Origin: Alligator mississippiensis
Taxonomy: Eukaryota; Chordata; Crocodylia; Alligatoridae
Reading direction: 5' to 3'
Assembly: GCF_030867095.1 (NCBI RefSeq)
Contig: NC_081828.1
Span: 218,395,978 to 218,459,977 of the forward strand
DNA: 64,000 bases
Below, piece after piece: positions 39,001 to 55,600 of this stretch. Below the pieces are notes generated by a model that did no database searches, was not told the origin of the DNA, and worked only from the letters and a program-made list of their open reading frames with translations. Numbering within the stretch: the first letter of the stretch is position 1; each line of letters starts with the position of its first letter. The translations under genes and the position numbers were made by a program.

Positions 39001-42000
39001 GACCCAGCACCTCCAGCACCGCCTCCGCCGGCAGCACCGAGACGGAGCCCGACCCACGGAGCCCCGGGATCGGCATGTGGAGTCGGTGCCACAACGGTGA
39101 GCCAGAGCCAGGGTGGTGCAGCAGTCTCCTGCCATCCCTTCACACCGGTCGCTGTGTCCCGTGGCACGTGGCCACCTCTTCTCCCTCCACAGGCGCCAGC
39201 CCCCAGAGCTCCCCTCTGCAGGGGCTGCAGAACTGCCTGAGGGACCTCGCCGCCCCCGCGGGCTGCACCGCCAGCCCCCCGGCTGCGAACGGGCCTGCCG
39301 GCCGTGGGGTGCAGAGGAAGCCGAAGCCCTGGCTGTGCACGCTGGATGCTGCAGGTAGGAGGAGAGCAGGGGCTGCGCCTTCTCTGCATCCTTATCCTGT
39401 CTCAGGCTCCCTTGGTGGCTCTGCTCGGGGCTGCTGTAGGGACCAGGGGGGTCACAGGAGCGTGTTAACGAATGGGGCTCGGGTAGGACAGGGGGGCATC
39501 CGCTCCTCCTGCACCTGCCCCAGGGACTAGGGGCCAACGGGGCTGCACGGAAGGGGAAAAGTGGTGCATCTGCAGGGGCGGGGGTGGATGGAGCCTCTCC
39601 TGCCCCCGAGCCCAGGCTGGTTTTGTGCATCTTGTTTTACCGCAGACGCAGCCCCCAAGCACTCCCCCCTGCATGGCCTGGAAAACTGCCTCAGGGACCT
39701 TGTGAGCGAGGGACGGTCTGGCTCCAGCAACGGTGACGTGCCGAAGCCCGAGATGTGGGCTCCGCAGGAAGGTAAGGCCGAGGGGGTGTGCCATCGCACA
39801 CCCAGGTGCAGAGGGTGGGGTGACCCCGAATAGCAGGCCCAGCCTGGCTGCAATAGGAAGCTTATAAGGGGTAGGATGGCCCTAAGACCTCCCTGCATTA
39901 TTCAGTGTCCGGTTCCACGGCTCTGATTTCTGGAGGGCTTGGGGAGACCCTGAAGGATGCTCTGGAGCTAGAGCCGCAGCAGCAGCACGTGGTCCGCTTG
40001 GAAGTGCGCATGTCGCAGCGCTGCAGAGAGCGGACCAGGAGAGGCTGAGATCACTAGGAACATTTAGCTCGGAGACAAAGCAATTAAGCGGGGACATGAC
40101 AGCAGTCCTCAAGTACCGGACTGGCTGCCTTAGAGAAGAGGGGGAACAACCACTCTCCCTTGCTGCAGAGAGCCGGACCCGTAGCAATGGCTGCAAATAG
40201 CAGCAGTGTGCATTTAGCTTAGATCTTCCTTGCTGCCAGGGGAGCAGTGGGATCTCTTGCCCTGGAGGTTTCCCCGAGGAGGCTGGAGAAGCCCGGCTGG
40301 GGATGGTTTGGGAGCAGCATCCTGCATCCATGCAGGGCTTGGACCAGGCGAGCTGCGAGGTCCCTCCCAGCCCTGTGGCTCTAGGGAGCGCAGGGACCCG
40401 GTCTGACTCCACTGGGCGCCCAGAGTGGTGCCAGCCATGAGGCCCAGACCCCATCGTGTTTTGCATTCATTGCAGCCTCGGGCAGCGTGTGCACTCGCAG
40501 CACATGGAGCTGTTTGGGGGAGACACCTGTGAGCAACTTGGGACACGCGGACCCTCCGGCCAGCCGCTGGTGCTGCGGGGCAGGGGGCCGGAGGGGTGGG
40601 CACAGCCAGCCCTGCCCCTGCAGCCTCCCCCTTCATGTCTCTGTTGCAGAGATCGGGTACGAGATGGCAGCTGGCAGCCCCTGCCCTGGCCCAGAGGGAC
40701 CTCCCACCGCCAGCCCCGCACGCCGTGAGGCACCATCCAGCCCTGCGCAGGGGGAAGAGGATACCTCCACGAGGGGCACAGTGGCTCGGGGTGAGTGGGG
40801 CTGGCCAGCCCTCGTCTCCCAGCATGAGGGAACCTCCCATGAATCCCGTTCCCACCGCCCCAGTGGGAGCTGCCACACAGCAGCCTCTGACCTGGTTCCA
40901 GCAACCCTGGGAGCACGACGGCCCCGCAGAGCCCTCTCCCTGCATCCCCCGCTGCCCACACCAGCCACGGGACATGCACCCCTGAGCTGGGGAGCGACCA
41001 GCCTTGCCTGGTAGCAGCAAGCTTTGGAGCTGGTTTGTGTTTTGCTTAAAACAGAGGCAGCCGCAAGCAATGGCCCGAAGAGCTGGGTGGAGGACAGTGC
41101 TGTGCACAGCCCCCATTGCTCCAGCACGGAGGACCAGGAGCTGAGAAGGTTGGAGCTGGGAGCCGGGAGATGCTGCAGAGGAGGTGAGAGGAGGGGCTGG
41201 CTGCTGGAGGAGCCGGCTCCAGGCACCCAAGTGCAAGGCAGAGCAAGTGCTCAGGAGGGGCTTGGTGTCCGCACAGGGCACTAAAGGCCAAGGGGAGCTG
41301 CTGGCGCTCAGCCTGGGTGTAATTGGGGATGGGCAAGAGTCAGGGCATAAACTGTGGGGGTAGAGGGGTGAGGCGCAGCTGGCCTTGGCACTTGCAGAGC
41401 TTCCCTTAGCCACAGGCATCGTAACATCAGAGCTGCCACGTACTGGGTCAGACCCCAGTCTCCTGTGTCACACGCGGGCAGAGAGCGGAGGCTGGAAGGG
41501 AGAGTGACCTGGGCACGATCAGGGTTTCCCCCTCTTCCTCTCTCCCTTGCAGCCTTCAGCATTGAAGGTCCAGCAACTTGTGACGTAGAGGCTGTGCCCC
41601 CCACACCCGTGCTTAAATAGCTACCGATGCCCCTTTCCTCTAAAACGTGTCCAGTCCCTTTGTGAATCTGGCTGGACGCTCAGCTTCCAGCACATCTGGT
41701 GGAGATGAGTCCCCACTTGAAAGCGGTGCTGGGCGACCAAGAACTGCCTTGTGTTCATTTTAAACTGACGGCCTGATCCTTTAATTTTGTGCCCCCCTCC
41801 ATTCTTGTCTGGTGAGAGGCAGTCAGTAATAAATCCCTAGTGACTTTCTCTTCACCACTGAATACTTTGTAAACCCTTTTCTTGTCCTCCTGCCAGGCAC
41901 CTCTTACCTAAACTGACCAGCTCTGGCCTCGTTAGTCTCTTCTCCTAGGGAAGCCCCTCCATAGCCCTTGTCGTCCTTGCAGCCCTTTTCTGCACCTTCT

Positions 42001-45000
42001 TTAGCTCATCTCTCTCCTTTCTGAGGTGCGGGGACCAGAGCTGGGCACAGCGTTCAAGATGTGGATGCACCGTGGATTTACAAGGGGGCATGATGATACT
42101 TTCAGCATTTGCTCAAGCACAAGACTTAGCCTGGGGCATTAGAGGGGGGGTCTCAGGGATGACACATGGGATCTCTAGGGCTAGAAACTGGCCTGGGTGT
42201 TGTGGGGCTAGCAGAGGAAGGGGGGAAGCACCAGGGAGCCCTGGCATGCTGGGATGGAGCCGGGAGCCAAAGGTGGGGAGGTCCAGGACAAGATGGAGCA
42301 TGACCCCTCTCCTGGCCACGTGTAGATGATGGAGCAGTGATAGTCTTTGTCTCCGCAGAAGCGACGAGGGAGACCTCCCCACTCCATAGCTTGCTGGGCT
42401 GTCTCAAGGAGATCCGCACCGCGGGGCCATCTCCCTCCCACGCACCAGACAGCAGCTCATCTGCTCACGGCACCCGGTGCAACAGGGCCCAGGAGAGAAT
42501 GGGCAGCAGGGCCGGGACCCCGTCTGGCGAGGGTGAGCGGCTCTGATGCAGCTCAGGCTTTGGGATTGCCAGGAGAGTGGAGAGGCTGTGCCTCCGTGCC
42601 TGCACCAGGGACACGCTCCAGGCAGCACGCTGGCTGTCGGTGTGGGCCGGAGCCATAGGCAGGATGGGTGCGTGGGGTACATGCTGTAGGGATGCATGTG
42701 CCCTCAGCGGAGAGGAAGGTGGAAAAATGTGTGCAACCAAAGCAGGTTACAGCCCGAGGGAAGTGCTGGGTCTCCCCGAGCAGCCAGTTGCACCCTGTGC
42801 TCTGCTCCGAATCACAGGATCCTAGACACCGGGGGCTGGAAGGGACCGCAGGAGGGCACATCTAGTCCGACCCCCTGCTCCAAGCAGGACCAGCCCCAAC
42901 TACATCATCCCAGCCAGGGCTTTATTTATTGAGGTCTTCAAAAACCTCCAAGGATGGAGAGTCTACAACCTCTCCAAGTAGCCTGTTCCAGAGCTTTACT
43001 CCCCGCCTCATAAGGAAGTTTTTCCTACTATCCAACCTCAACTTCCCGTGCTGCAATGTGAGCCCATTGCTCCTTGTCCTGCCATCTGCCCGCACTGAGA
43101 ACAGTCCAGCTCCGTCCTCTTTGCAACCCCCCTGCAGGGAGATGAAGGCTGCTATTAAGCCCTCCCTTCAGTCTCCTTTTCTCTAGACTAAATCAGCCCA
43201 GTTCTCATAGTCTTTCCTCACAAGTCCTGTCCCACAGCCACCAAACCATTTTGCTGCCCTCTGTTGGACTCTCTCCAATGTGTCCACCTCCTTTCTGTCG
43301 TGGGGGGCCCACAACTGGACACCGGACTCCAGATGTGGCCTCTCCCGTGCTGAATAGAGGGGAAGGATCTGCTGGTAATGCTCCTCCCAGTGCAGCCCAG
43401 GATGCCGGTAGCCTTCTTGGCACCAAGGGCACACTGCTGGTTCATACCCATCTTATTGTCCACGGTCACCCCCAGGTCCTTTTTTGCAGAGCTGCTGCCC
43501 AGCACCTCAGCCCCCAAATTGTACTGATGCATGGGGTTGTTCTGTCCTAAGTGCAGGACTTTGCACTTGTCCTTATTGGACCTCGTGATACTTCTTTTGG
43601 TCCAATCTTCCAATTTGTTGAGAAGGGAGAGGATGCCAGCCCCAGGGGAGAGGCAGCCAGCGCAGAAACACTCATGACCAGAGCAGGAGCGGGAGCAGGG
43701 TTCCCATGTGGACCTGGCCCTCAGAGGATGTGGTTGCAAGTGGGTTTCTTGCCCTGGCGAGACCAGTGTCTGGACAAACAGGCTGAGATTTCCACCCAGG
43801 CTAGAGAAGAGTGGATGCCTTGCTGGCATTGCCCTGGCCAGGGGCTGGCACGGCCTGTCCGGCATGGGTCATCCTTGTCTAATTCTGCCTTGTCATATAT
43901 AATGTTGCCTGTCCCCACCAGAGACATGTCCATGGGGTAACCCCTGAGGATGTGTTCAAGGGAAGTGATTCTTCCCCTGTGTTTTCACTGGGGAGCCCCC
44001 CCCCCTAATGCTGGGCCCTGGATGATTTGGAAAGAATCCAGTTCAGAGTAACAAAAATTATTTGGGGCCTGGGAAGCAAGACTGATGAGGACAGGCTGAA
44101 GGGGTGATTTAGTCAGGAGAAGGGGAGAGTGAGGGGGGATTTGTAGTCTGCAAACCCCTGAAGGGCGGTGACGGAGATGGGCTTTTCTTTGTGGCTGTAG
44201 GGGACAGGACAAGGAGCAACGGCCTCAAGCTGCAGCAGGGGAAACTGAGGCTGGAGATGAGGAGGGACTTTCTGACCCTGAGGGTGGTCCAGCACTGAAA
44301 CAGGCTGCATGGAGCAGCTGTGGAGTCTCCATCCTAGGAAGTTTTCAAGAGCAGTTGGACAGACACTTGGTTGGGATGGTTTTGAGCAGGGGGCTGGATT
44401 AGATGTGATCCCCTGAGGTCCCTTCCAGCTGGATTTTCCTATGACCCTATGAGATTCCCTGCTCCGACCACCCCTACCCGCTCTGAGGGTAACCCAGTAC
44501 GGACGGCCAGGTTTCAGCCTGTGCATTTCCATGTGCCAGAGGACACTGGGCTTTCCCGGGAGCTCCCTGGGAACAGCATTGTTGGGTCCTTGGCAGAACA
44601 TTGCTATGTTTCCCAGTCACCCCCTTTCCCTGCAAAAAAGAGCAAACCTTTGGCCCAGGCAGACACTAGCTATTCAGGTGCCAGGACACCTCCTCCCCTG
44701 GACGCTGCCTTTGGTTGGACAGAAAACAGCGGTGTCCTCTAGACAAATGGTTTCCTGCAGGAATAAGGCTTCTTTGGATCCGGTGATGACTCGGTCGCGT
44801 AGCGCTCACGGGCAGGTGGGGCCTGTCTTTAATGTGGACTTTCTCTGCAGTCCTTCCATCAGAAGTGGGCCCTGCGGACGCCCCTCGCTACAGCGCAGCA
44901 TCCTGTGCCGAGAGACCACCTGGAAATGAAGCCGGTTGCTCTGACGCGCAATGCGGCATGTCTGCCGGCAGCGCTCAGGTCCGCGGGTGTCTCAGGAGAC

Positions 45001-46908
45001 CGGAGAAGGGCTCGAAGAGACCGCATCCTGCAGGTGAGGGCATCGCTTTGCTCCTGCAGCAGGTCTGAAACTGCACTTCTGTTTGAGTGCCTTGATTCTC
45101 CCCGGTGCTGAGCTCCCGGTGCCCGCGCCCTCTGAATCGGGCCTGCATTTAGGAGCCTGAGGGTATTGCTGTACTGCCCCTGTAGCCTGAACTCACCCCT
45201 AAACAAAGGTGTACACTTGTGCTAAGCAGGTTCTTGGCTTGTGATCTGCTCAGCTCTTGCAAACTCAGCCGAGGTTTGGCCCAGTCAGTTGGTGGGTGGG
45301 AGCCATTAAGGGAAAAGAGGAGTGAGTCCGTCCTGAGCTGCGGCCCCAGCACAGTGCTTGGAGATGCTTGGAGAGGTCAGATAGAAACTGAGACTCTGGT
45401 GCCGTTACTAAATCCCTGGGACTTGGTAGGAGTGGAGGTCAACAAGCCCCAAAGTCGATCATGACCCCTTGAAACAGGCCTCCAGGGACCCTGTTATGAT
45501 AAGAGGAAAAGTACAGCAGGGAAGGTCTGCAGTCGAGCGGGATGGCTACAGGAGAGGGAGCAGCTAGAGGAGGCTGAAGCAACGGGGGACAGGCCTGCAA
45601 GTCCCTGCTGGGGAGCTGGCTGCAGGGCAATAGCCAACAGGGAGGAGGCAACCCCAGGTCCAGTCCTTTGTACCTGCCTCTGCAGCATAGTTGTCTCTCA
45701 CCTCCTTTGCTGCCTGTCCTAACCGCTGCATGGTGGTGCTGGGTGATGTTAAATATTCACTGCCTGTCACCTGGGGCAGCGTCAGCATGGTGCAGACGGT
45801 GCTCGGGGTCCTCGTTGCTGTGTGGTGCTATCGGAGCGGGCAGGGGGCCTGAACTGACCCTTTGCCCTGCTCCCACTCTCTCCGGAGGTGCCACAGGGCA
45901 GCAGCAACGCAGGCAGCAATTTCTGGTTGTGCGGGGCTGGGACGGACAGCACGGGAGACATGCCGATGGTCGTGGCTTTGCTGTGCATGCTCAGAGCTTC
46001 CTGTTCTCTGCCTTGCAGCCCAGGGGGATGCTGCTCGGCTCCCGAGGTCCAGCTCCCGCGGTCCTGATGCCTCTGAGCAGCAGACGGAGGCAGAGTGGGA
46101 CACGTCCCCCAAGAAGCAGTGCCCCACCGCAGCCCCCAGCGAGTCCTGCAGCTGCGAGAGCCACACGCCGCAGGTCTTCCAGGTGGAAACCGGTCACTTC
46201 CAAGCCGTCCTCTCGGAGAAGCTGGACCGAATCTCCGAGGATGTCGCCACCCTCTGCAGGGATGTCTCGAGCATGCGGCGCCGCATGGCGCGGCTGGAGC
46301 AGGAGGCGCGGGGCTGGGCCCGGGAGGCCACCGCCCTCCGGAAAGGCAGCCAGGGCCTGAGCAAGACCCTCAGGCGGCTGGAGCACCGCTGTCGCGCGCT
46401 GGAGACCCGCGCCCGGCGCAACAACCTGAGGCTGCTGGGGCTGCCCGAGGGCACGGAGGGTGGGGATGCCATTGCCTTCCTACAGACGGCCTTGCCCGGG
46501 ATGCTTGGGCTGCCCGCTGATGTCCCGGCCCTGGAGATCGAGAGCGCGCGCCGCGTGCCTGGGGGGACGCGCTGCGACCCCGCTGCCACCGCCCGGCCCC
46601 GGGCGCTCGTGTTCCGGCTGCTGCGCTTGGCGGACAAGGCGGCCGTCCTGCGGGCAGTGAGGAAGCGCGTGGAGCCGCTGGTCTGGGGCGGCACACGGGT
46701 GGCCATCTTCCCCGACGTCTGTCCCAAGCTGTCCCGGAGGAGGAGAGCCCGGCACACGGCTGGCGGGCACATCTGGCGGGCGGCAGAGCTCCGTGTCAGC
46801 CCTCGGCCCTCCGGCTGCCCACGAGGACGGCGGGAGCTGCTGCCTGGCCCCATGGCGGGCACCTGGGACAGAGAGGAGAGGGAGGGCAGGGACCCGTCTG
46901 GGCACTGA
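18061..46908 (+). CDS. KRBA1: KRBA1 orthologue: KRAB-A protein with KRBA1 repeats and C-terminal L1-ORF1p-like domain (26 coding exons)
   Basis: Exons: 18061-18087, 23309-23435, 23809-23916, 25508-25606, 25694-25843, 26003-26170, 26760-26894, 27544-27744, 28289-28414, 29214-29357, 30194-30328, 30713-30793, 31526-31708, 31909-32037, 32692-32847, 34217-34384, 36735-36893, 38495-38671, 38935-39096, 39193-39354, 39646-39771, 40650-40790, 41055-41183, 42359-42532, 44851-45033 and 46019-46908. They total 4440 nt and 1479 residues without an internal stop. KRBA1 is a nuclear KRAB protein without zinc fingers, and its biochemical role is poorly known. Identity rests on the KRAB exon, the LHLSALMKLVKEIPEFLFG block (exon 5), which closely matches mammalian KRBA1 from memory, and the repeated SPLxGLxNCLKEIP exons. 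Every intron after the first is phase 1. Human KRBA1 is shorter (about 1000 residues) and, as remembered, lacks the C-terminal RNA-binding-like domain. Some exons may be missed or alternative. Confidence 0.88.
20135..20330 (-). mobile_element. CR1-like repeat, 3' portion, in KRBA1 intron 1
   Basis: This minus-orientation copy shows GGGCTGGCAGGGAGCTCCAG, CCAACCCCTGCCCCAGGCAG and ACCTGCCCCAGGGAAAGCAG, matching the repeat in both inverted-repeat arms. Confidence 0.75.
21630..23172 (+). mobile_element. CR1 LINE, 5'-truncated, in KRBA1 intron 1
   Basis: Plus-strand frames give [67 protein letters not shown] and GVPQGSVLGPALFNIFIGDL. These are followed by FADNTKMWGEVG, where the active-site FADD reads FADN, and by the C-terminal block through VVLAPTRRGVFKRR. 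At least two frameshifts separate these frames. The 3' end has ACTATGAAACTATGA octamers at 23,157-23,170. The subfamily is the same as the minus-strand copy at 8367-11290. Confidence 0.9.
23309..23435 (+). CDS. KRBA1: KRBA1 exon 2: KRAB-A box
   Basis: The exon is 127 nt, phase 0 in and phase 1 out. It reads [20 protein letters not shown], then AGWQQALHKEVMEETARLLL, then SLG across the junction. The DV and EEW positions of KRAB-A are kept, but the MLE segment that contributes to TRIM28 binding reads MEE, so classical co-repressor binding may be weak. The acceptor is TCCCCCAG and the donor is GTGAGG. Confidence 0.92.
23809..23916 (+). CDS. KRBA1: KRBA1 exon 3
   Basis: The exon has 108 nt, phase 1 to phase 1, and encodes GQSVPALALLSLTDHQEAAG and so on. 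Its position after KRAB and its composition fit the LPLSAFLSPSEPG segment remembered for human KRBA1. Confidence 0.75.
23917..24739. other. KRBA1 intron 3, first part, no feature recognised
   Basis: Nothing recognisable was seen before the CR1 copy that begins about 24,740. Confidence 0.4.
24740..25325 (+). mobile_element. CR1 LINE 3' portion in KRBA1 intron 3
   Basis: The text includes ATTCTCCCCCTCTATTCAGC, TCCTGTGTCCAGTTTTGGGC and GGGCTCAAGCTGCAGCAAGG. It ends near GACTAGATGTGACCTCCTGA. This is the same subfamily as 3190-3575, with more of the polymerase C-terminal region kept. Confidence 0.85.
25508..25606 (+). CDS. KRBA1: KRBA1 exon 4
   Basis: The exon has 99 nt, phase 1 to phase 1, and reads EERAFPGDYPDADVPWDLG and so on. 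It is acidic and low in complexity. The acceptor is CTTTGCAG and the donor is GTAGGA. Confidence 0.7.
25694..25843 (+). CDS. KRBA1: KRBA1 exon 5: LVKEIPEFLFG block
   Basis: The 150-nt exon contains GSLHLSALMKLVKEIPEFLF, nearly the same as the remembered human segment SLHLTALVQLVKEIPEFLFG. It is the strongest single identifier of the gene and probably the founder form of the KRBA1 repeat. Confidence 0.93.
26003..26170 (+). CDS. KRBA1: KRBA1 exon 6
   Basis: The exon has 168 nt, phase 1 to phase 1. Immediately after the acceptor GTGCAG it encodes VKTEEPPETP, a PsiKxE SUMO-type motif, then a Ser/Pro-rich stretch ending SSAEGNERGSPPGSLYAG. Confidence 0.8.
26760..26894 (+). CDS. KRBA1: KRBA1 exon 7: KRBA1 repeat 1
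   Basis: The exon reads DIPMENSPLQGLLNCLKEIP and continues to WQATG, 135 nt, phase 1 to phase 1. The acceptor GACCTAG has a weak pyrimidine tract, so the 5' edge is less sure than the repeat itself. Confidence 0.8.
26950..27245 (+). mobile_element. CR1-like repeat fragment
   Basis: GGGGCAGGAAGGAATTTTAC, CCCCCTGGTCAGACTGG and GGCAGGTTCGGGTGTG match the repeat inside the inverted arms. A short direct duplication of TTATGCAGCATTTAGATGAT occurs at 27,188 and 27,221. Confidence 0.75.
27544..27744 (+). CDS. KRBA1: KRBA1 exon 8: KRBA1 repeat 2
   Basis: The 201-nt exon opens AVKTEVMAE and continues SSPLQSLENCLRDLAA, then a Gln/Glu run (QEQEQVQVQ). It carries both a SUMO-type motif and a repeat in one exon. 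The donor is GTATGG. Confidence 0.88.
28289..28414 (+). CDS. KRBA1: KRBA1 exon 9
   Basis: The 126-nt exon, phase 1 to phase 1, encodes VQAAAGTPDTMSDQPGDRQG and a SSSSSAEGEREQ stretch resembling exon 6. The left end of the 1019-base inverted-repeat arm (28,350) falls inside this exon. The donor GTGGGC is weaker than its neighbours. Confidence 0.6.
28565..29015 (+). mobile_element. CR1-like repeat within the left arm
   Basis: This is the fullest copy here of the repeat also found at 2265, 7150 (minus), 20,135 (minus), 26,950, 48,110 and 60,575 (minus). It starts CAGCCCAGGCTAGGGTGGCG and ends GGTTGGACTCGGTGTGACCT followed by an AGGATTTCTCTGATTTCTCT tail. Confidence 0.8.
29214..29357 (+). CDS. 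KRBA1: KRBA1 exon 10: KRBA1 repeat 3
   Basis: The 144-nt exon reads AVPAEESPLQGLLNCLKEIL, then VRAPRCPPSPPSRAVSG, to the donor GTGAGT. The acceptor is a CAGCAG pair (29,208-29,213), so an extra Ala can be included. A full inverted copy lies at about 34,942-35,085 on the minus strand within the same gene. Confidence 0.88.
29383..29535 (+). mobile_element. CR1 3' tail fragment
   Basis: The text runs from CCATCCTTGGAGGTGTTTAA to TGAGGTCCCATCCAACCCAA and TTTTCTATGAGTC. It begins only about 15 bases beyond the right boundary of the left arm. Confidence 0.8.
29536..30193. other. KRBA1 intron 10, no further feature recognised
   Basis: The stretch is moderately AT-rich and then pyrimidine-rich before the exon 11 acceptor TTTTTTCTTGCAG. 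Confidence 0.4.
30194..30328 (+). CDS. KRBA1: KRBA1 exon 11
   Basis: The exon has 135 nt, phase 1 to phase 1, and starts VKTEAALGAPHGPGS with a SUMO-type motif directly after a strong acceptor. It has no SPL repeat. Confidence 0.8.
30713..30793 (+). CDS. KRBA1: KRBA1 exon 12
   Basis: The exon is 81 nt if the acceptor TTCCCAG (30,712) is used, or 75 nt if the second acceptor GTGCAG (30,718) is used. Both keep phase 1. It encodes (GA)VKTEGSAAHSPPRGPSSGW. Confidence 0.72.
31526..31708 (+). CDS. KRBA1: KRBA1 exon 13
   Basis: The exon has 183 nt, phase 1 to phase 1, begins VKTEAGTEDATWQSR and ends WHLYPQ. The acceptor is TTCTGTAG and the donor is GTAGGG. Confidence 0.78.
31909..32037 (+). CDS. 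KRBA1: KRBA1 exon 14: KRBA1 repeat 4
   Basis: The exon reads EPTPGTSPLHGLVNCLKEIP and then VPSASLSSLAGAEATPM. The acceptor is an AAGCAG pair, so a start at 31,906 is also in frame. The length is 129 nt and the donor is GTGAGT. Confidence 0.88.
32692..32847 (+). CDS. KRBA1: KRBA1 exon 15: KRBA1 repeat 5
   Basis: The exon reads DVSAESSPLRGLENCLKDIP and then a Cys/Pro-rich tail with VCLPCGSP. The length is 156 nt, phase 1 to phase 1, and the donor is GTCAGT. Confidence 0.88.
32848..33844. other. KRBA1 intron 15, first part
   Basis: No supported exon or repeat is seen. A possible short exon after TTCCAG at 33,720 is listed among the rejections. Confidence 0.35.
33845..34075 (+). mobile_element. 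CR1 LINE 3' end
   Basis: The text includes AGCTGCAGCAGGGGAAACTG, AGGCTGGAGATGAGGAGC and CTGAGGTCCCTTCCAGCCCG, ending TTTCCTATGATCCTA. Related copies lie at 44,000 and 61,100. Confidence 0.85.
34217..34384 (+). CDS. KRBA1: KRBA1 exon 16: KRBA1 repeat 6
   Basis: The exon reads DLGAETSPLQGLENCLKEIP and then VAVHSRCVTPASRSS, ending RPLKAE(G). LKAE is a further PsiKxE-type site. The length is 168 nt and the donor is GTACGA. Confidence 0.9.
34555..34810 (+). mobile_element. CR1 LINE 3' portion, lacking the extreme end
   Basis: The text runs from GACTGGGCTGATTGAGTCTG through GGGCTCAAGCTGCAGCAAGG to AGCACTGGCACCGGCTCCCG. It sits about 120 bases outside the right inverted arm. Confidence 0.82.
34931..35949 (-). 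repeat. Inverted duplication, right arm (derived copy)
   Basis: This is the reverse complement of 28,350-29,368 over exactly 1019 bases. On the minus strand it carries an intact-looking copy of exon 10 (about 35,085 down to 34,942) with splice sites and open frame, and the 3' half of exon 9 (35,949-35,885). The exon copies are antisense to KRBA1 and cannot be spliced into its mRNA. They differ by two amino acids (Arg for Cys, Ala for Val). The spacer between the arms is 5562 bases. Confidence 0.97.
35270..35735 (-). mobile_element. CR1-like repeat within the right arm
   Basis: This is the counterpart of 28,565-29,015, carried along in the inverted duplication rather than inserted independently, since its flanks are duplicated too. 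Confidence 0.85.
36138..36715 (-). mobile_element. CR1 LINE 3' portion
   Basis: This minus-orientation copy has GAGGGCTGGAAGGGACCTCC, then CAACCCCCTGCTCCAAGCAG, then the polymerase C-terminal region up to AGCTGGACACAGGACTCCG. The 3' end faces left at 36,138. Confidence 0.88.
36735..36893 (+). CDS. KRBA1: KRBA1 exon 17: degenerate repeat
   Basis: The 159-nt exon begins VKIEALPESSRLHGPGSSEK and then EVPHYPSK. The SUMO-type motif is kept, while the SPLxGL block has decayed to SRLHGP, with loss of NCLK. Confidence 0.78.
37350..37640 (-). mobile_element. CR1 LINE internal fragment
   Basis: On the minus strand this matches the segment just upstream of a CR1 3' end, including plus-strand TTTTCTCTTCTCCAGATTAA, CAATCTCGCCTCTCGGGCCC and GCTCTGAGCTGGAAGAATAG. 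It lacks the terminal part. Confidence 0.7.
37641..38494. other. KRBA1 intron 17, distal part
   Basis: No feature was recognised apart from the exon 18 acceptor region. Confidence 0.35.
38495..38671 (+). CDS. KRBA1: KRBA1 exon 18: KRBA1 repeat 7
   Basis: The exon reads GAATEDTPPLRGLENCLKDI and then PVPRPRCPNAAAG, 177 nt. A second in-frame acceptor (GAGCAG at 38,500) would shorten it by two codons. The donor is GTAGGA. Confidence 0.86.
38935..39096 (+). CDS. KRBA1: KRBA1 exon 19: degenerate KRBA1 repeat 8
   Basis: The exon reads AAGDECPLLRGLISSWTEVP, a diverged repeat in which NCLKE became SSWTE. The acceptor is a CAGCAGCAG triplet following CTCCCCC. An upstream acceptor at 38,838 would give a 258-nt version that stays open and in phase. 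Confidence 0.75.
39193..39354 (+). CDS. KRBA1: KRBA1 exon 20: KRBA1 repeat 9
   Basis: The exon reads GASPQSSPLQGLQNCLRDLA and then a Cys/Pro/Ala-rich tail ending WLCTLDAA. The length is 162 nt, with acceptor CCTCCACAG and donor GTAGGA. Confidence 0.9.
39646..39771 (+). CDS. KRBA1: KRBA1 exon 21: KRBA1 repeat 10
   Basis: The exon reads DAAPKHSPLHGLENCLRDLV and then SEGRSGSSNGDVPKPEMW, 126 nt, with donor GTAAGG. Confidence 0.9.
40040..40385 (+). mobile_element. CR1 LINE 3' end
   Basis: The text includes AGAGGCTGAGATCACTAGGA, CAGAGAGCCGGACCCGTAGC and GAGGTCCCTCCCAGCCCTGT, ending at GGCTCTAGGG. It is diverged from the other copies. Confidence 0.7.
40650..40790 (+). CDS. KRBA1: KRBA1 exon 22
   Basis: The exon has 141 nt, phase 1 to phase 1, and reads EIGYEMAAGSPCPGPEGPPT and so on, with acceptor CTGTTGCAG and donor GTGAGT. 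The frame is also open upstream to a possible acceptor at 40,476 (TCATTGCAG), so a longer form is possible. Confidence 0.65.
41055..41183 (+). CDS. KRBA1: KRBA1 exon 23
   Basis: The exon has 129 nt, phase 1 to phase 1, and reads EAAASNGPKSWVEDSAVHSP and so on. The acceptor used is AAAACAG at 41,054. In sister exons the same bases encode the KTE of a VKTE motif, so the splice site here seems to have slipped downstream. Confidence 0.65.
41430..42120 (-). mobile_element. Old CR1 LINE 3' portion
   Basis: This diverged minus-orientation copy has GTGCCCCCCTCCATTCTTGT, GCAGCCCTTTTCTGCACCTT and GGGGACCAGAGCTGGGCACA. It belongs to the same old family as 2740-3190 and 48,845-49,260. Confidence 0.7.
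42359..42532 (+). CDS. KRBA1: KRBA1 exon 24: KRBA1 repeat 11
   Basis: The exon reads EATRETSPLHSLLGCLKEIR and then a Ser/Pro-rich tail. The length is 174 nt, with acceptor CTCCGCAG and donor GTGAGC. Confidence 0.86.
42812..43650 (-). mobile_element. CR1 LINE 3' portion, about 0.8 kb
   Basis: The 3' end is at 42,812, with GGGGGCTGGAAGGGACCGCA. Minus-strand frames include [25 protein letters not shown] and SGVQLWAP, the C-terminal part of the polymerase. It is a longer member of the subfamily at 36,138. Confidence 0.88.
44000..44455 (+). mobile_element. CR1 LINE 3' end
   Basis: The text includes AGGACAGGCTGAAGGGGTGA, AACGGCCTCAAGCTGCAGCA and GAGGTCCCTTCCAGCTGGAT, ending TTTTCCTATGACCCTATGA. 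It lies in KRBA1 intron 24. Confidence 0.88.
44851..45033 (+). CDS. KRBA1: KRBA1 exon 25
   Basis: The exon has 183 nt, phase 1 to phase 1, and reads VLPSEVGPADAPRYSAASCA and so on, ending in a basic stretch RRPEKGSKRPHP that could act as a nuclear localisation signal. The acceptor is TTCTCTGCAG and the donor is GTGAGG. Confidence 0.75.
45034..46018. other. KRBA1 intron 25
   Basis: No repeat or gene was recognised. Confidence 0.4.
46019..46908 (+). CDS. KRBA1: KRBA1 exon 26: coiled coil plus LINE-1 ORF1p-like domain, stop codon
   Basis: The 890-nt terminal exon encodes about 296 residues. A coiled coil (about residues 1239-1315 of the protein) starts near FQAVLSEKLDRISEDVATLC, which aligns by eye with AEKLDRLATALAGLAQEVAT remembered from human KRBA1. 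It is followed by RRNNLRLLGLPEG (46,414 on), then PALEIESARRVPGG, PRALVFRLLRLADKAAVLRA and GTRVAIFPDVCPKLSRRRRA. These are, in order, the signature blocks of the L1 ORF1p RRM (RRNNLRIxGLPEG, IERAHRV, RPIIVKFLxYxDKxxIL, VxFFPDFS). The C-terminal domain of ORF1p is lost after RRRRA and replaced by an unrelated basic tail. The frame is intact throughout. Confidence 0.88.
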
Positions 46909-47710
46909 ATGTGGACTCGGCCTCACTCGCTCAGCTTAGCCCCGCTTTGACGGGTGCCTCTGCTCTGCGGGGAGACGGCAGGCCTGGCCGGCAGGGCTTG
47001 GGGCGCACCAGCCCCAGAGTTTCAGCCTGCCGCCAGCGCTTCGATTCCCGGGTGCCTGGGCTCTGCCCCTGCAGCTCAGAGCCCCCTGCCACGTGCTCTC
47101 AGCAGCTTGGACACGGCGGTCTTGGGGTTATCAGGCAGATCGTGGTACTTGTGTGCCGATCTCTCATTCGTGAGCTGCTCAGGGGGTGGCCGTGAGCGCT
47201 GGTCTCGCCCTGGGGGTCGTGTCTGTCACCCTGACAAGCCCCCTCGTCCGCTGTCTCCTGCGTAGATCTCCACAGCTGCATTTTTCCACCATGGCCCCGT
47301 GACTTGGCTGCAATCCCTGACAGGGCCGTGGGGCCTCTCGTCTGCCCTGGGCAGGGCAGCGCCTGGAGCCTTTGGAGAAGGGGCTTAACCTCACACCTGC
47401 CTTTCAGCCTCCCTTCCCCCTACCCCGTCTTGCACCTTACTGCACCCAGCCCTGCTCTTACACCCGTCATCCCAGGGCGCACTCGGGCTCCGCACCCCTG
47501 CTCCTCCCCGCCCGTGCCCCGCGCTCTCCCGGGGGTTGCAGGTGTGGCTCCCCTGCAAGGAGCATGCAGCAGCGGGGAGCGGGGCTGTGCATCCTCAGGG
47601 ATCTCTGTGTCCGTGCTCTGTCCTGCTGGTGCCGGTGGCTGTCACTGCTCCCCCAGGCTCTCCGCACCTTGCATTGTTCAGCCACATTAAACCTTGGTTT
47701 GCAAAGCGGC
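46909..47710 (+). other. KRBA1: KRBA1 3' untranslated region
   Basis: This is about 800 bases between the stop codon and the poly(A) signal. No repeat is recognised inside it. Confidence 0.6.
47686..47691 (+). terminator. KRBA1: Poly(A) signal ATTAAA
   Basis: ATTAAA, the commonest variant signal, is followed within 30 bases by a T/G-rich stretch (CTTTGTCCTTTGTCTGTTCC) suited to cleavage-factor binding. It is the first good signal after the KRBA1 stop. Confidence 0.6.
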
Positions 47711-48844: not shown

Positions 48845-49260
48845 AGCTAGGAGCCTGCGGGGGCCAGGGGATTTCCCGGGCCTCTCCCTTGCAGCCCCCA
48901 TCGTTGGAGGTGGAGGCAGGTCTGATGCAGAGGCCGTGCCCCTCGCCCCTGTGGTCCGAAGCTCCTGGTGCTGCTTTCCTCCAAGCACGCGTCTAATCCC
49001 CGTGTGAACGGCTGAACTCCCCGCTTCCCCCACATCTGGGGACGAGTCCCCACGTTAATGCCACGCCGGGGGACCAAGTGCTGCCTGGCGTTGGCTTTCA
49101 ACTGCCCGCCTGCGCCTTCTATGCGGTGACGCCTCGTTTTTTGTCGGGTGCCAACAATAAACCCCCGGGGACTTCTCCTGTCCGCCCCCCCACGGATCTC
49201 TTTCCACCCCCGCCTGGCCTTGCGAGTCTCTGCAGAGGGGAGCCCTCGTCTCTGCCCCGT
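48845..49260 (-). mobile_element. Old CR1 LINE 3' portion
   Basis: This minus-orientation copy is related to 2740-3190 and 41,430-42,120 through GAGGCCGTGCCCCTCGCCCC and GGACCAAGTGCTGCCTGGCG. It ends where the CpG island begins. Confidence 0.6.
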
Positions 49261-49264
49261 CTCT

Positions 49265-49600
49265 AGCCCCGCTCCCTGCGGGACCCGCACCCAGGGGGCA
49301 GCCGCCCGCGCACCCCCCGCCGCCGCCTTCGCCCCCGGCTGCAGCCCGGCTCCCCGGACCTGCCCGACAGCACGGAGCGCCGGCCCGGACCGAGCCGGGG
49401 CACGCGGCTTTGCACGGCCCCTGGGCACGCTCGTGTGCCCCGCCTCCGGCTCCCGGCAGGCCCCGCGCCCGGCTCGCGGGGCGTCGCTCCGGAGTCACTC
49501 CGCAGCATGGCCCGGCCCGGCCCGGCCCAGGTAGGAGTGCCGCCGCATCCCCGCGCCCGGCCGGTGCCAGGGGCCGCCCCGCAGGGGGCGCTGCCGCTCG
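49265..49600 (+). promoter_or_regulatory. CpG island promoter of the zinc-finger gene
   Basis: CpG is very dense here, in contrast to the surroundings, with a GC box CCCCGCC at about 49,438. The island spans the start exon at 49,507. It is a TATA-less housekeeping-type promoter by appearance. Confidence 0.75.
49507..49530 (+). CDS. Zinc-finger gene exon 1 (start exon)
   Basis: ATG opens MARPGPAQ, ending CAG before GTAGGA, phase 0, within the CpG island. It joins in frame to the KRAB exon and mirrors KRBA1 exon 1. Confidence 0.75.
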
Positions 49601-52600
49601 GCTTTCCGCTCCCTGTCCTGCCCTGACAATCCGCTCTCTGCTCCCTGCCTTCTCTCCCGCTCTGCTTTCTGCTCCCTACCTTCTCTCCCACTTTGTTTTC
49701 TGCTCCCTGCCCTGCCAGTCCGTTTTCTGCTCCCTGCCTTCTCTCCCACTCTGCTTTCCGCTCCCTGCCAGTCTGCTTTCTGCTCCTTGCCTTCTCTCCC
49801 ACTCTGCTTTCCGCTCCCTGCCAGTCTGCTTTCTGCTCCTTGCCTTCTCTCCCACTCTGCTTTCCGCTCCCTACCTTCTCTCCCACTTTGTTTTCTGCTC
49901 CCTGCCCTGCCAGTCCGTTTTCTGCTCCCTGCCTTCTCTCCCACTCTGCTTTCCGCTCCCTGCCAGTCTGCTTTCTGCTCCTTGCCTTCTCTCCCACTCT
50001 GCTTTCTGCTCCCTGCCAGTCTGCTTTCTGCTCCCTACCTTCTCTCCCACTCTGCTTTCCGCTCCCTGCCAGTCTGCTTTCTGCTCCCTACCTTCTCTCC
50101 CACTTTGTTTTCTGCTCCCTGCCCTGCCACTCTGCTTTCTGCTCCTTGCGTTCTCTCCCACTCTGCTTTCTGCTCCCTGCCTTCTCTCCCACTCTGCTTT
50201 CTGCTCCCTGCCCTGCCAGTCCTCTTTCTGCTCCCTGCCTTCTCTCCCACTCTGCTTTCTGCTCCCTGCCCTGCGCTCCTCTGCCTCCAGCAGAGCTTCC
50301 CTGTGCTCCTCTGCTGCTCTGCTTTTTGCTCCATGCTCCCTGCTGGATCTGCTGCTCTGCCCCCTCCCTGATGTGCCCCAGGCCAGCTGCCCCCGTCCCG
50401 TCCCGTCCCCATGCGCGGTGTGGAAGGGGATGGGGACAGGGACGGGGACGGCTGTTCGCCGCCTGTCTCTCCGCAGGGGTGTGTTCGGTTGTTGCCCTGG
50501 ATGGACGGCCCCGAGTGGACAGCCCGGCTGCACGCAGGAGGTTTCGCGCTGTCCTTGGTTTGAGGTCACAGACGCCGCCGTGGGCACTTCCCCAGGCTGC
50601 TGTGTTGGGGTGGGCACGGCCCCCAGCAGAGGTGGCGCAGTGGCGGGACGCGGGGTTTCCTGCAAGCGGATGATGTGCAGCCCCCAGCTCCCCATCCAGC
50701 CTGTTGTGTGCCGCTGATCATTTAACTCAGGGTCAGGGCTCAGAGGGCTGCTAATAAGAGTTGTATTGGTTTTCCTTCTAGCAGTTTAAATACTCCTCCC
50801 TTCTCCTCCCACCCCCTCCGAGCTCTTCAGATACCTGGAGTCTTCCCTGAAACGCCACGCGAATGGGACCGGGATTTCCAGAGGGGAGGGAGGGAAACCT
50901 CAGGATGCTCCAATCTGACTTGTGCATCTCCAGCCAGGGCACAGACCTACCTTCGTCCTCCGCTGCTCTGGCAAGGGCAGTGCCGTGATCCTCTGGGACA
51001 TGTGGAAAGCCCTCAGACAGCCTGAATGCTGGAGAGGAGTGTGGGCACCTCGCACCTCTCTGAGAGCCGTTGTGTGAGATCCCGGCCCTCTGGCAGAGTC
51101 CTGAGGTCTTTCCAGGAGTCTGGATTCACCTGCTTTTCTGGGCGCTCTGCAGGCAGCCAGGGCTGCAGAGATTTCATAGATTTCATAGACATTAGGGCCG
51201 GAAGAGACCTCGGAAGATCATCGAGTCCAGCCCCCCGCCCAAAGGGCAGGAAGTCAGCTGGGGTCATAGGATCCCAGCAAGATCCTATGAGATGCCCGGC
51301 ACTGAGTTGGCATCTTGCTTTCTTCTGCCTGGACTGACCCGTCCTTTCACAGGTTCATCAATGCTCGGGTCAGGAGGGACCTCGACAGATCATCCAGTCC
51401 GACCCCCTGCCTGGGCAGCAAAAAGGGCTGGGGTCAGATGCCCCCAGCCAGATGCATACCCAGCCTTCTCTTAGAGACCCCCAAGGAGGGGAGAGCACCA
51501 CCTCCCTTGGCAGCCCAGTCTAGATTTTGGCCACCCTTACCATGAAGAAGTTTTTCCTGATATCCAGCCTAAATCTGCTCTCTGTCAGTCTGTGATCATT
51601 GTTCCTTGTTACCCCAAGAGGCACCCTAGTGCATCTGTAGTCCCTTGCTGCATCCCCCTAATGAATTTGTAGGCAGCCACAAGATCACCTCTCAGCCTTC
51701 TCTTGAGGAGGCTGAAGAGGTCCAGGTCCCTCAGTCTCTCCTCGTTGGGCTTGTCCTGTAAGCCTCTGACCATATGAGCGGCCTCCTCTGGACCCTCTCG
51801 AGTCTATCCACATCCTTATTCGTAGATTCATAGATGTTAGGGTCGGAAGGGACCTCAATAGATCATCGAGTCCGACCCCCTGCATAGGCAGGAAAGAGTG
51901 CTGGGTCTAGATGACCCCAGCTAGATACTCATCTAACCTCCTCTTGAAGACCCCCAGGGTAGGGGAGAGCACCACCTCCCTTGGGAGCCCGTTCCAGACC
52001 TTGGCCACTCGAACCGTGAAGCAGTTCTTCCTAATGTCCAGTCTAAATCTGCTCTCTGCTAGCTTGTGGCCATTGTTTCTTGTAACCCCCGGGGGCGCCA
52101 TGGTGAATAAATCCTCACCAATTCCCTTCTGTGCCCCCGTGATGAACTTATAGGCAGCCACAAGGTCGCCTCTCAACCTTCTCTTGCGGAGGCTGAAAAG
52201 GTCCAGTTTCTCTAGTCTCTCCTCGTAGGGCTTGGTCTGCAGGCCCTTAACCATACGAGTGGCCCTTCTCTGGACCCTCTCCAGGTTATCCGCATGCCTC
52301 TTGAATTGCGACACCCAGAATTGCACGCAGTACTCCAACTGCGGTCTGACCAGCGCCCGATAGAGGGGAAGTATCACCTCCTTGGACCTATTCGTCATGC
52401 ATCTGCTGATGCACGATAAAGTGCGATTGGCTTTTTTGATGGCTTCGTCACACTGCCGGCTCATGTTCATCTTGGAGTCCACTAGGACTCCAAGATCCCT
52501 TTCCACCTCTGTGCCACCCAGCAGGTCATTCCCTAGGCTGTAGGTGTGCTGGACATTTTTCCTCCCTAGGTGCAGCACTTTGCATTTCTCCTTGTTGAAC

Positions 52601-55600
52601 TGCATCCTGTTGTTTTCTGCCCACTTGTCCAACCTATCCAGGTCTGCCTGCAGCTGTTCCCTGCCCTCCGGCGTGTCCACTTCTCCCCATAGCTTTGTGT
52701 CATCTGCAAACTTGGACAGAGTACATTTCACTCCCTCGTCCAAGTCACTGATGAAGATGTTGAAGCGTATTGGTCCCAGGACTGAGCCCTGCCCACTGGA
52801 CTGTGTAGTCATCCAAGTCACAGCCTCTTAACTTGTTCACCAGTATGGGGTGGGATACCGTATCAAAGGCCTTCCTGAAGTCTAAGTATACGACATCCAC
52901 CCCTCCTCCTGTGTCCAGGCGTTTCATAACCTGGTCATAAAAAGAGACTAGATTGGTCAGGCACGATCTGCGTGCCACGAACCTGTGCAGGTTCATGACC
53001 CTTCTTGAAGTGCAGTGCCCAAAACTGCACGCAGTCCTCCAACTGCGGTCTGACCAGTGCCTCATAGAGGGGAAGTGTCACCTCCTTGGATCTATTGGTC
53101 ACGCATCTGCTGATGCACGATAAAGTGCGGTTAGCTTTGCTGGTGATTTTGTCGCACCGATGACTTGTGTTCATCCTGGAGTCCACTAGGACTCCGAGAT
53201 CCCTTTCTGCATCTGTGCTGCTGAGAGGACCCTCAGCCAGTAGATGTGGGTCCCAGCCAGTGGGTGTGCTGGATATTTTTGCACCCTCGGTGCAGCACTC
53301 TGCACTTGTCCTTGTTGTGTTGCATCCTATCGTGTACTGTCCACTCTTCCAACCTGTCCAGGTCTGCCTGCAGTTGTTCCCTACCCTCTGGACTGTGCAC
53401 TTCACCCCACAATTTAGTATTGTCTGCAAACGTGGACAGAGTGCACGTCACCCCCACATCCAAGTCACTGATGAAGACATTGAAGAGTACAGGTCCGAGG
53501 ACTGAGCTCTGCAGGACTCCACTGCCCATGTCCTTCCAGGTCAATACCGACCTGTCTGCTACCACTCTTCTAGGTGCGACCCCCAAGTCAATTTGCCATC
53601 CACCAGACTGTGTGAAAATCTGTCACAGCCTCTTCATTTATTTATGAGAATGGGATGAGATACCGTATTGAAGGCCTTGCTAAAATCCAAGAAAACGACA
53701 CCCACCTTTCACACGCAGTTGAGTTACCATTTCCTTTTGCAGCTTGTTTGGGGTCTTGGCACTGGGGAGATTTGAGTCCAGTACCTCCTTGACACCAAGG
53801 GTGCTTCATCACTGATACCCCTGGACTAGGAGTCTCCTGCAGGCCCAGATTCTCCGTGGTGGGGTGGGCTGGAGACCCTACCCTTACCCCAGGGCATGGT
53901 GGAGGAGCAGTGCAAGGGGCATACAGCAGCCCTGTGCTGTGCCTGCCCCAGGGTCTTCCCCCCTTCAGGCAACTGCTGGGGCCGTTTACCCCTGTGGCTC
54001 TGTCTTGGCCCAAGCAGTCCAGAGCTTGCTGGCTGCAGGCTGCATTTAGTGCTGAGCTGATGCCGTTGAGATGTGCAAGTCTGCTGAGAATCACTGTGCA
54101 TCACACCGCCAGCCCGGGTTTAGCTGAGACTTCAGCGGTGCCTAGGACTTGGGCTTCCTTGCATGGGAGGGAGGGGGAATTTCCCCCAGCAAAAGCCGTT
54201 CCCTTGTTGGGACTGGACAGAGGGTGCTGACTGCTTGTGCTTGCAGGTGCCGGTGACCTTTGAGGACGTGGCCGTCTACTTTTTCCGGGAGGAGTGGGAC
54301 GTGTTTGCGGACTGGCAGAAGGCGCTCTACCGGGAAGTGATGATGGAGAACTACGGCACGCTGCTTTCTCTAGGTAAGGAGCCCTTTCTTTCTCTTGTTC
54401 AGGTCTCTGCTAACTATTTGCCCAGGAGTGTCTCTTGGTGGGTTGCAGTCCATCGATAAACCGCTATCCCCAGCAAAGGCAGGGACAGAGCTAAAGCCAG
54501 TAAAGTGTTTGCAATGAGCCCTTAGGAAATAGGAGTGAGGAGGTTACTGGTCTGAGCATCTGCAACCCCAGCACCATTTGGCAGTTTTGAGAACCAGACT
54601 CTGGGTCTCTGGGCCAGTTCCCAGAATAGATGGGTACTTTTGAAAATAACCCTCCTGGATGACTTTCTCCAGGTTGTGCAAATAGTCAGCAAAAGAGCAG
54701 GGAAGAAAACTCAGCTCCCCTGACTCTAAGGCCTGCCATTATGCCACCTTCTCTTAACGTTTGCACCCAATGCTGCAACCCCACGGTAAAGGTAGCAGCG
54801 CCTTGATGTGAAGCAGACCACGAAAAAAGGGAGCCAGACGTGAAGCTGAAAGGACCTTATATCGTTGTACAATCTGAGAGGTGCCCAGGCAAAGGGAAGG
54901 TCCACAGGAGCGTGCAGTAATTGAGTGTGTTTTTAAGGACATAGAAACACAAAGTAGTTTGTCACCAAAGCTGTGCCGGGGGTTCTTCGCTCTTATAGTC
55001 ACTGCTAGTAAAGTTGTCGGGGGTTATTTGTGCAACTATAGACAGAGCGAGGGCAGAGTTATGTCTGACAATAGCTGTGGTTGTGTAAGAGTGATGCTGT
55101 AGCCGCGATGGTGCAGAAATTATGTGAGAAGAAAGACTTTTTCTTAGGGTGAGCTGTTTTATTGGACTAGCTCTGTAGTTGGGATAAAGTTAGCCAGGCT
55201 TTTGCATGAAAGACATTCTTTGTCCAAAATGGAAGATGCCAAAATCCAGACAAATAGCTAAGAATTCTCTTACTGCTTGGGCCAGGTCCTGGACTTGGCA
55301 AAAGATTTGGCCACCCATGTAGCCAAGAGCTGGGGGTTCAGTTTGGGTCAGGAAGAGATGGCCTCCCTGCTCACTTCAAAAACCAACGTGTTAGACATGG
55401 CGCTTTGTCCCATGTGGCTTTCCTTGGTGTCGGGCCTCTTGGGTACGAGCAGACCCTTCTCTCAGCCATTCCCACCGCGCACTCTTCACGTTGTGCTCTT
55501 CTGATTGTCGTTCAAACCATGCCGCGGTCATTTTTGTTTCTCTTCTCTAAACTTCTTCCAGTTGGTAACCATCTTTCTGATAGCTGGAGCCAGAAGCAGA

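Follow-up and report, generated by a model that had tools for sequence, protein, structure and literature searches.

The stretch of DNA analysed here (hereafter the window) comprises 64,000 nucleotides of the Alligator mississippiensis genome (contig NC_081828.1; G000:C5:218395978-218459977 in the 2.35-Gb assembly of 195 contigs that was searched). It carries on its forward strand the gene KRBA1, whose predicted terminal exon (46019-46908; all positions are those of the window) encodes a sequence resembling ORF1p, the RNA-binding protein of the LINE-1 (L1) retrotransposon. The gene was recognised by a KRAB box together with KRBA1 repeats carried by phase-1 exons (Table 1). The KRAB exon scored 62.7 bits and, besides it, PF15287 was above its cut-off in five of the seven upstream exons tested, the exceptions being 25696-25842 and 44853-45032. 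A home-made profile built from seven KRBA1 repeats marked 11 stretches at 11 bits or more, ten on the + strand and one on the - strand. Since all nine PF15287 matches found in the genome (102 candidates scored) fall inside the window, KRBA1 appears to be single-copy at the sensitivity of this search. Splice sites were scored with a simple matrix of approximate base frequencies. The top-scoring donor was of phase 1 in all 12 KRBA1 cores and the top-scoring acceptor in 8 of them, 11 of the cores being independent, as 44851-45033 was framed via its continuation into the 46019 exon. For the repeat exon 38495-38671, a phase-0 acceptor at 38356 outscores the acceptor used.

The terminal exon holds one open frame of 295 residues (46019-46905), closed by TGA at 46906-46908, and the peptides on which the initial annotation had based the likeness to ORF1p were all recovered in this single frame and in the order it gave. 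It had also described the frame as joined in phase to the KRBA1 array, which agrees with the predicted splice sites: the phase-1 acceptor at 46019 continues the phase-1 array, and phase-1 splicing reads the L1-like frame. The acceptor AG (46017-46018) scores 5.2, and a score of 7.0 was obtained for the donor following 45033; among the acceptors listed, only those of 39193 (6.7) and of another predicted exon (6.6) exceed 5.2. The G+C content at the three codon positions (GC1/2/3) is 0.70/0.56/0.90 over 46075-46749, a codon signature that, in a scan of 15,198 window-frames covering both strands, was outranked only by the 62-kb zinc-finger exon. The contrast between GC3 (0.90) and GC2 (0.56) indicates that the frame is coding. 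The signature weakens towards the end of the exon, in the tail (46720-46905; 0.69/0.71/0.81), and is gone after the stop (46900-47049; 0.68/0.70/0.68). The observed/expected CpG ratio is 0.74 in 46019-46908 and 0.40 across the window, so that the exon is possibly an unmethylated or promoter-like stretch.

As to the relationship with the L1 protein, a phmmer search of the whole exon against the PDB retrieved human LINE-1 ORF1p (2ykp) at E=5.5e-5 over exon residues 83-235, coiled coil and RNA recognition motif (RRM) together, and ORF1p was the sole PDB match with E<0.1. When the RRM was searched alone, ORF1p made up three of the four sequences listed, including all of the top three. The absence of a significant profile match, which would have told against the initial annotation, applies in part: the Pfam profile PF02994 by itself is not significant (E=0.11), the whole-exon sequence search is. 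As an in-window control, human ORF1p fragments were compared with the 1594 stop-to-stop open reading frame (ORF) fragments of at least 25 residues found in the window. The exon fragment ranked first with both queries, at E=5.3e-6 against 0.71 for the runner-up with the coil plus RRM, and at E=0.0071 against 1.7 with the RRM only. In 10,000 segment-wise shuffles, the best score was 9.0 bits against 23.8 for the exon, and 9.4 against 14.0 for the RRM only. In the whole-exon phmmer alignment, identity to ORF1p amounts to 27 of 100 positions over the RRM and 9 of 49 over the coil. The C-terminal domain of ORF1p was not found, no Pfam family being reported in 46402-46905 and the phmmer match stopping at exon residue 235. 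As judged from the sequence, the observation that the predicted KRBA1 gene ends in an ORF1p-like exon holds and is confirmed.

The coil comprises 71 residues in ten unbroken heptads, with hydrophobic residues (A and C included) at 90% of the a/d positions, a heptad hydrophobicity reached by none of 5000 shuffles, and AlphaFold run without alignment modelled it as one helix (residues 2-78). Each of its two RhxxhE motifs takes the g-a-d-e register against the heptad line; in 20,000 shuffles, at least one such motif arose by chance in 18% and at least two in 1.5%. The coil preceding the RRM of ORF1p also has two RhxxhE motifs, forming salt bridges from e to g' positions (PMC5940361). Of these human motifs, that at R110-E115 is kept in place and that with R117/E122 is missing. 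Among the residues described for ORF1p, N157/R159 are related to foci and retrotransposition, R117/E122 to trimerisation, and K137/K140, R235, R206/R210/R211 and R261 to RNA binding (PMC9839780). N157, R159, K137 and R235 are kept in the exon and K140 is replaced by R (whole-exon phmmer alignment), and R155, R202, R215, R220 and R232 are also identical. Of these, R220 is presumably a functional residue as well. The R206/R210/R211 cluster is lost, the aligned residues being G/A/T.

Table 1. Predicted exons of KRBA1 and segments of its terminal exon (window positions).
Feature	Position	Strand	Evidence or remark
KRAB-A exon of KRBA1	23309-23435	+	PF01352 E=2.4e-17; acceptor 3.0, phase-1 donor 5.3
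KRBA1 repeat exon, phase 1-1	27496-27744	+	PF15287 E=9.4e-9; splice sites
KRBA1 repeat exon, phase 1-1	31909-32037	+	PF15287 E=1.1e-10; splice sites
KRBA1 repeat exon, phase 1-1	32692-32847	+	home-made profile 36.3 bits (repeat among its 7 builders); splice sites
KRBA1 repeat exon, phase 1-1	34217-34384	+	PF15287 E=2.4e-10; splice sites
KRBA1 repeat exon, phase 1-1	38495-38671	+	home-made profile 36.0 bits (repeat among its 7 builders); splice sites
KRBA1 repeat exon, phase 1-1	39193-39354	+	PF15287 E=1.3e-6; splice sites
KRBA1 repeat exon, phase 1-1	42359-42532	+	PF15287 E=5.5e-8; splice sites
Predicted penultimate exon, phase 1-1	44851-45033	+	donor 7.0, acceptor weak (0.4); no Pfam match
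Predicted terminal exon with stop: N-terminal linker, coil, L1-type RRM, basic tail	46019-46908	+	
Coiled coil, 10 heptads	46201-46413	+	heptad scan against shuffles; AlphaFold helix
RhxxhE motif RMARLE, register g-a-d-e	46282-46299	+	aligned with human ORF1p R110-E115
Second RhxxhE motif RCRALE, register g-a-d-e	46387-46404	+	no human motif at the matching place
L1 ORF1p-type RRM segment, human residues about 154-252	46414-46716	+	phmmer, Pfam, alignment
Basic tail, net charge +8, replacing the ORF1p C-terminal domain	46717-46905	+	weaker codon signature

The exon DNA had one match in the genome, in a search that skips very common words. A genome search with PF02994 at E<=0.001 confirmed none of 4 candidates, and control genomes were silent too, so that the result does not prove absence; at E<=10 there were at least three matches (L006, L007 and L008). 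L006 reached 25.3 bits, above the cut-off, contains an internal stop and has a G+C content of 0.315 over the match and 0.39 over 822 bases. By its sequence it is a broken, AT-rich L1 ORF1 fossil, the sole above-cut-off ORF1 trace found in the genome. The L008 match (18.4 bits, with a stop) was taken as noise. The KRBA1 exon is itself not among the three, which shows the limit of this search. Closer to the exon, 10 of the 16 ORFs of at least 120 residues listed between 45578 and 49494 were scanned, and none of the 10 gave a Pfam match at E<=0.05 or any trace of ORF2, in a search that was not exhaustive. Since the exon DNA has one genome match and the lone above-cut-off fossil is broken and AT-rich, a recent L1 insertion seems unlikely; an autonomous or mobile L1 copy was set aside in view of copy number and composition, and because the ORFs tested showed no sign of ORF2.

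We consider it probable that 46019-46908 is the terminal coding exon of KRBA1 and that it encodes a domesticated, C-terminally shortened coil-RRM of ORF1p, giving a trimeric, RNA-holding KRAB protein. In such a protein, the coil would make the product carrying the KRAB domain and KRBA1 repeats a parallel trimer, and the L1-type RRM placed directly after it would hold single-stranded RNA by means of the retained N157/R159, R220, R235 and K137 equivalent. RNA binding is expected to be weaker or of different specificity than that of ORF1p, because R206/R210/R211 and the C-terminal domain are missing. The exon would then be spliced to the KRBA1 array and kept by selection, and RNA binding may be linked to repression through KRAB. 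The initial annotation had placed the L1 nucleic-acid-binding module in KRBA1, and this stands as regards the coil and RRM homology, the KRAB/KRBA1 gene, the splice phase and the coding signature, but not for the module as a whole, which lacks the C-terminal domain and the R206/R210/R211 cluster. The module may have been captured by KRBA1 or may be ancestral and lost in mammals. The initial annotation had also called the KRAB domain silencing-type. The domain is recognisable, but its canonical MLE reads MEE (by eye), which makes recruitment of TRIM28 uncertain. The glutamate of MLE, which has been tied to formation of the TRIM28 complex (PMC6923878), is retained in MEE.

Several observations weigh against this reading. 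The published trimer pair R117/E122 is lost, the aligned residues being E/A. Coils inflate local scores, and the RRM alone matched the PDB at E=0.066. PF02994 reached 13.3 bits on the RRM (profile positions 1-83 of 98), below its 22.4-bit cut-off, and of six exon fragments that span the full RRM, two listed it, in each case below the cut-off; on the whole exon, Pfam gave sub-threshold families of the coiled-coil type alone. AlphaFold without alignment modelled the RRM with low confidence (mean predicted local distance difference test score, pLDDT, 45.7), and Foldseek gave no match at E<=0.001 among 116, with no ORF1p among the best 50 of the 116. The frame stays open in 91 of 5000 Markov shuffles, so that openness alone is weak evidence. 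A retroelement reverse transcriptase ORF at 52.8 kb (RVT_1) shows codon periodicity as well; therefore periodicity indicates coding, and not by itself a host gene or host selection. Finally, GC3 in the exon (0.86) exceeds the pooled value for nine other exons of KRBA1 (0.74).

Some of these points would fit a decayed LINE-1 ORF1 fossil, open by chance behind a cryptic acceptor and not a real exon. Such a fossil would explain the similarity to ORF1p, the loss of the C-terminal domain and, in a GC-rich stretch, the fraction of Markov shuffles that remain open, but the GC3/GC2 difference is limited to the frame, and in simulated neutral evolution (assumed indel rate) the frame survived 11 of 400 runs at 5% divergence and none of 400 from 10% upwards. 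The lone above-cut-off fossil in the genome is, moreover, AT-rich and broken, and neither an ORF2 trace in the nearby ORFs tested nor a further DNA match accompanies the exon. We regard this explanation as unlikely. Convergence is also improbable, that is, a KRBA1 coiled coil followed by an unrelated arginine-/leucine-rich sequence that merely resembles ORF1p. The sub-cut-off Pfam scores, the lack of a confident structure and the modest identity over the RRM are in its favour; nevertheless, the RRM-only match stands apart from the other window ORFs and from all shuffles, and the coil-to-RRM junction and the functional residues align in order. It is very unlikely that the exon is real but belongs to another transcript, being either an L1TD1-like gene of its own or exon 1 of the KRAB zinc-finger gene that follows on the same strand (KRAB exon at 54247, zinc fingers at 61858-62937). 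The promoter-like CpG ratio would suit this, as would the DUF3669-KRAB-ZNF proteins, which have an oligomerisation domain in the first exon, before KRAB (PMC6923878). However, the open frame of the exon has no in-frame ATG upstream of 46273, inside the coil, and PF12417 gave no match. The donors within the exon are weak as well, scoring 2.1 at best, in the wrong phase, and no more than 0.5 in the phase required, against 3.6-7.5 in KRBA1; on the grounds of these donors, splicing to the downstream KRAB exon was rejected.

A second ORF1p-like coil-RRM lies outside the window, where L007 sits in a 996-codon open frame (L009:3425-6415; G000 C11, about 24.38 Mb). Its coil-RRM region matched ORF1p 2ykp at E=9.2e-6 and the full ORF at 4.1e-5; PF02994 gave 17.1 bits, which misses the cut-off and ranks after a coiled-coil family that is itself sub-threshold. 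In a direct BLASTP comparison, the KRBA1 exon and this frame match at E=0.003 with 21% identity. We take the frame to be the long N-terminal exon of UNC13C (Munc13-3), and if so, the genome has two or more host genes with ORF1p-like coil-RRM modules. More tentatively, the coil-RRM of ORF1p could be a recurrently captured host module, of which L009:3425-6415 would hold a diverged copy, and KRBA1 might thereby have become a trimeric RNA-binding KRAB protein, perhaps for transposon transcripts, or one mixing into ORF1p trimers; we see this broader idea as possible and rather doubtful. Pattern searches confirmed none of 27 stretches in viral contigs, where a degenerate signature pattern gave no matches, and none of 300 in genome contigs.

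Other features of the window deserve mention. KRBA1 contains an inverted repeat (28342-29368 on the + strand and 35957-34931 on the - strand; 1027 bp, 97.5% identity) that takes in one repeat exon plus its reversed copy and is either a recent inverted duplication or an assembly artefact. On the same strand as KRBA1 are a second KRAB exon (54247-54373; PF01352 E=4.1e-21) and, at 61858-62937, an open frame in which C2H2 fingers were matched nine times; by their domain content these form a KRAB zinc-finger gene adjoining KRBA1. A reverse transcriptase remnant (51910-52827, - strand; RVT_1 E=2.3e-10), presumably CR1-like, has many partial relatives across the window. A 518-codon stop-to-stop frame (49161-50717, + strand) had no Pfam match at E<=0.01 and is probably a GC-rich repeat, since the reverse-strand frames there are internally repeated.

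If the proposed reading is true, KRBA1 represents a further domestication of ORF1p, through fusion rather than conversion of a whole gene, which brings a silencing-type domain and a transposon RNA-binding domain into a single protein. Judged by title and beginning of the abstract, no report of a KRAB/KRBA1-ORF1p fusion was found among the matches listed, and none of the KRBA1 papers listed dealt with its protein domains or with LINE-1. Compared with LINE-1 ORF1p itself (PF02994; 2ykp/2w7a), the exon shares a coil running straight into the RRM, the RhxxhE motifs, N157/R159, R220 and R235, but it lies in a KRAB gene, the ORFs tested nearby showed no sign of ORF2, and the exon is without the C-terminal domain, R206/R210/R211 and R117/E122. 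KRABINER also contains a KRAB domain. Host-transposase fusions such as KRABINER resemble the arrangement in KRBA1 in that gene-regulatory host domains are joined to a transposon-derived nucleic-acid-binding domain (PMC12062965). In KRABINER, however, this is the DNA-binding domain of a DNA transposon, unlike the retrotransposon RNA-binding protein in KRBA1. The DUF3669 coil of ZNF746-type proteins runs out into a stretch similar to the start of the ORF1p RRM, and it may share an ORF1p-type origin. The DUF3669-KRAB-ZNF proteins of amniotes (ZNF746, ZNF777) are likewise KRAB proteins with an added oligomerisation domain (PMC6923878), but DUF3669 is N-terminal, and it was rejected as the identity of the exon, since PF12417 was listed for none of the coil fragments; in the genome, none of 14 PF12417 candidates passed E<=0.001, and control genomes were silent too. 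L1TD1, of eutherian origin, provides another host gene derived from ORF1p with coil and RRM (PMC4161310; PMC11925450), and in human HAP1 cells it binds L1 RNA and associates with ORF1p (PMC11925450). L1TD1 has two ORF1-derived regions and keeps the C-terminal domains (PMC4161310; PMC11925450), whereas the module of KRBA1 consists of one exon.

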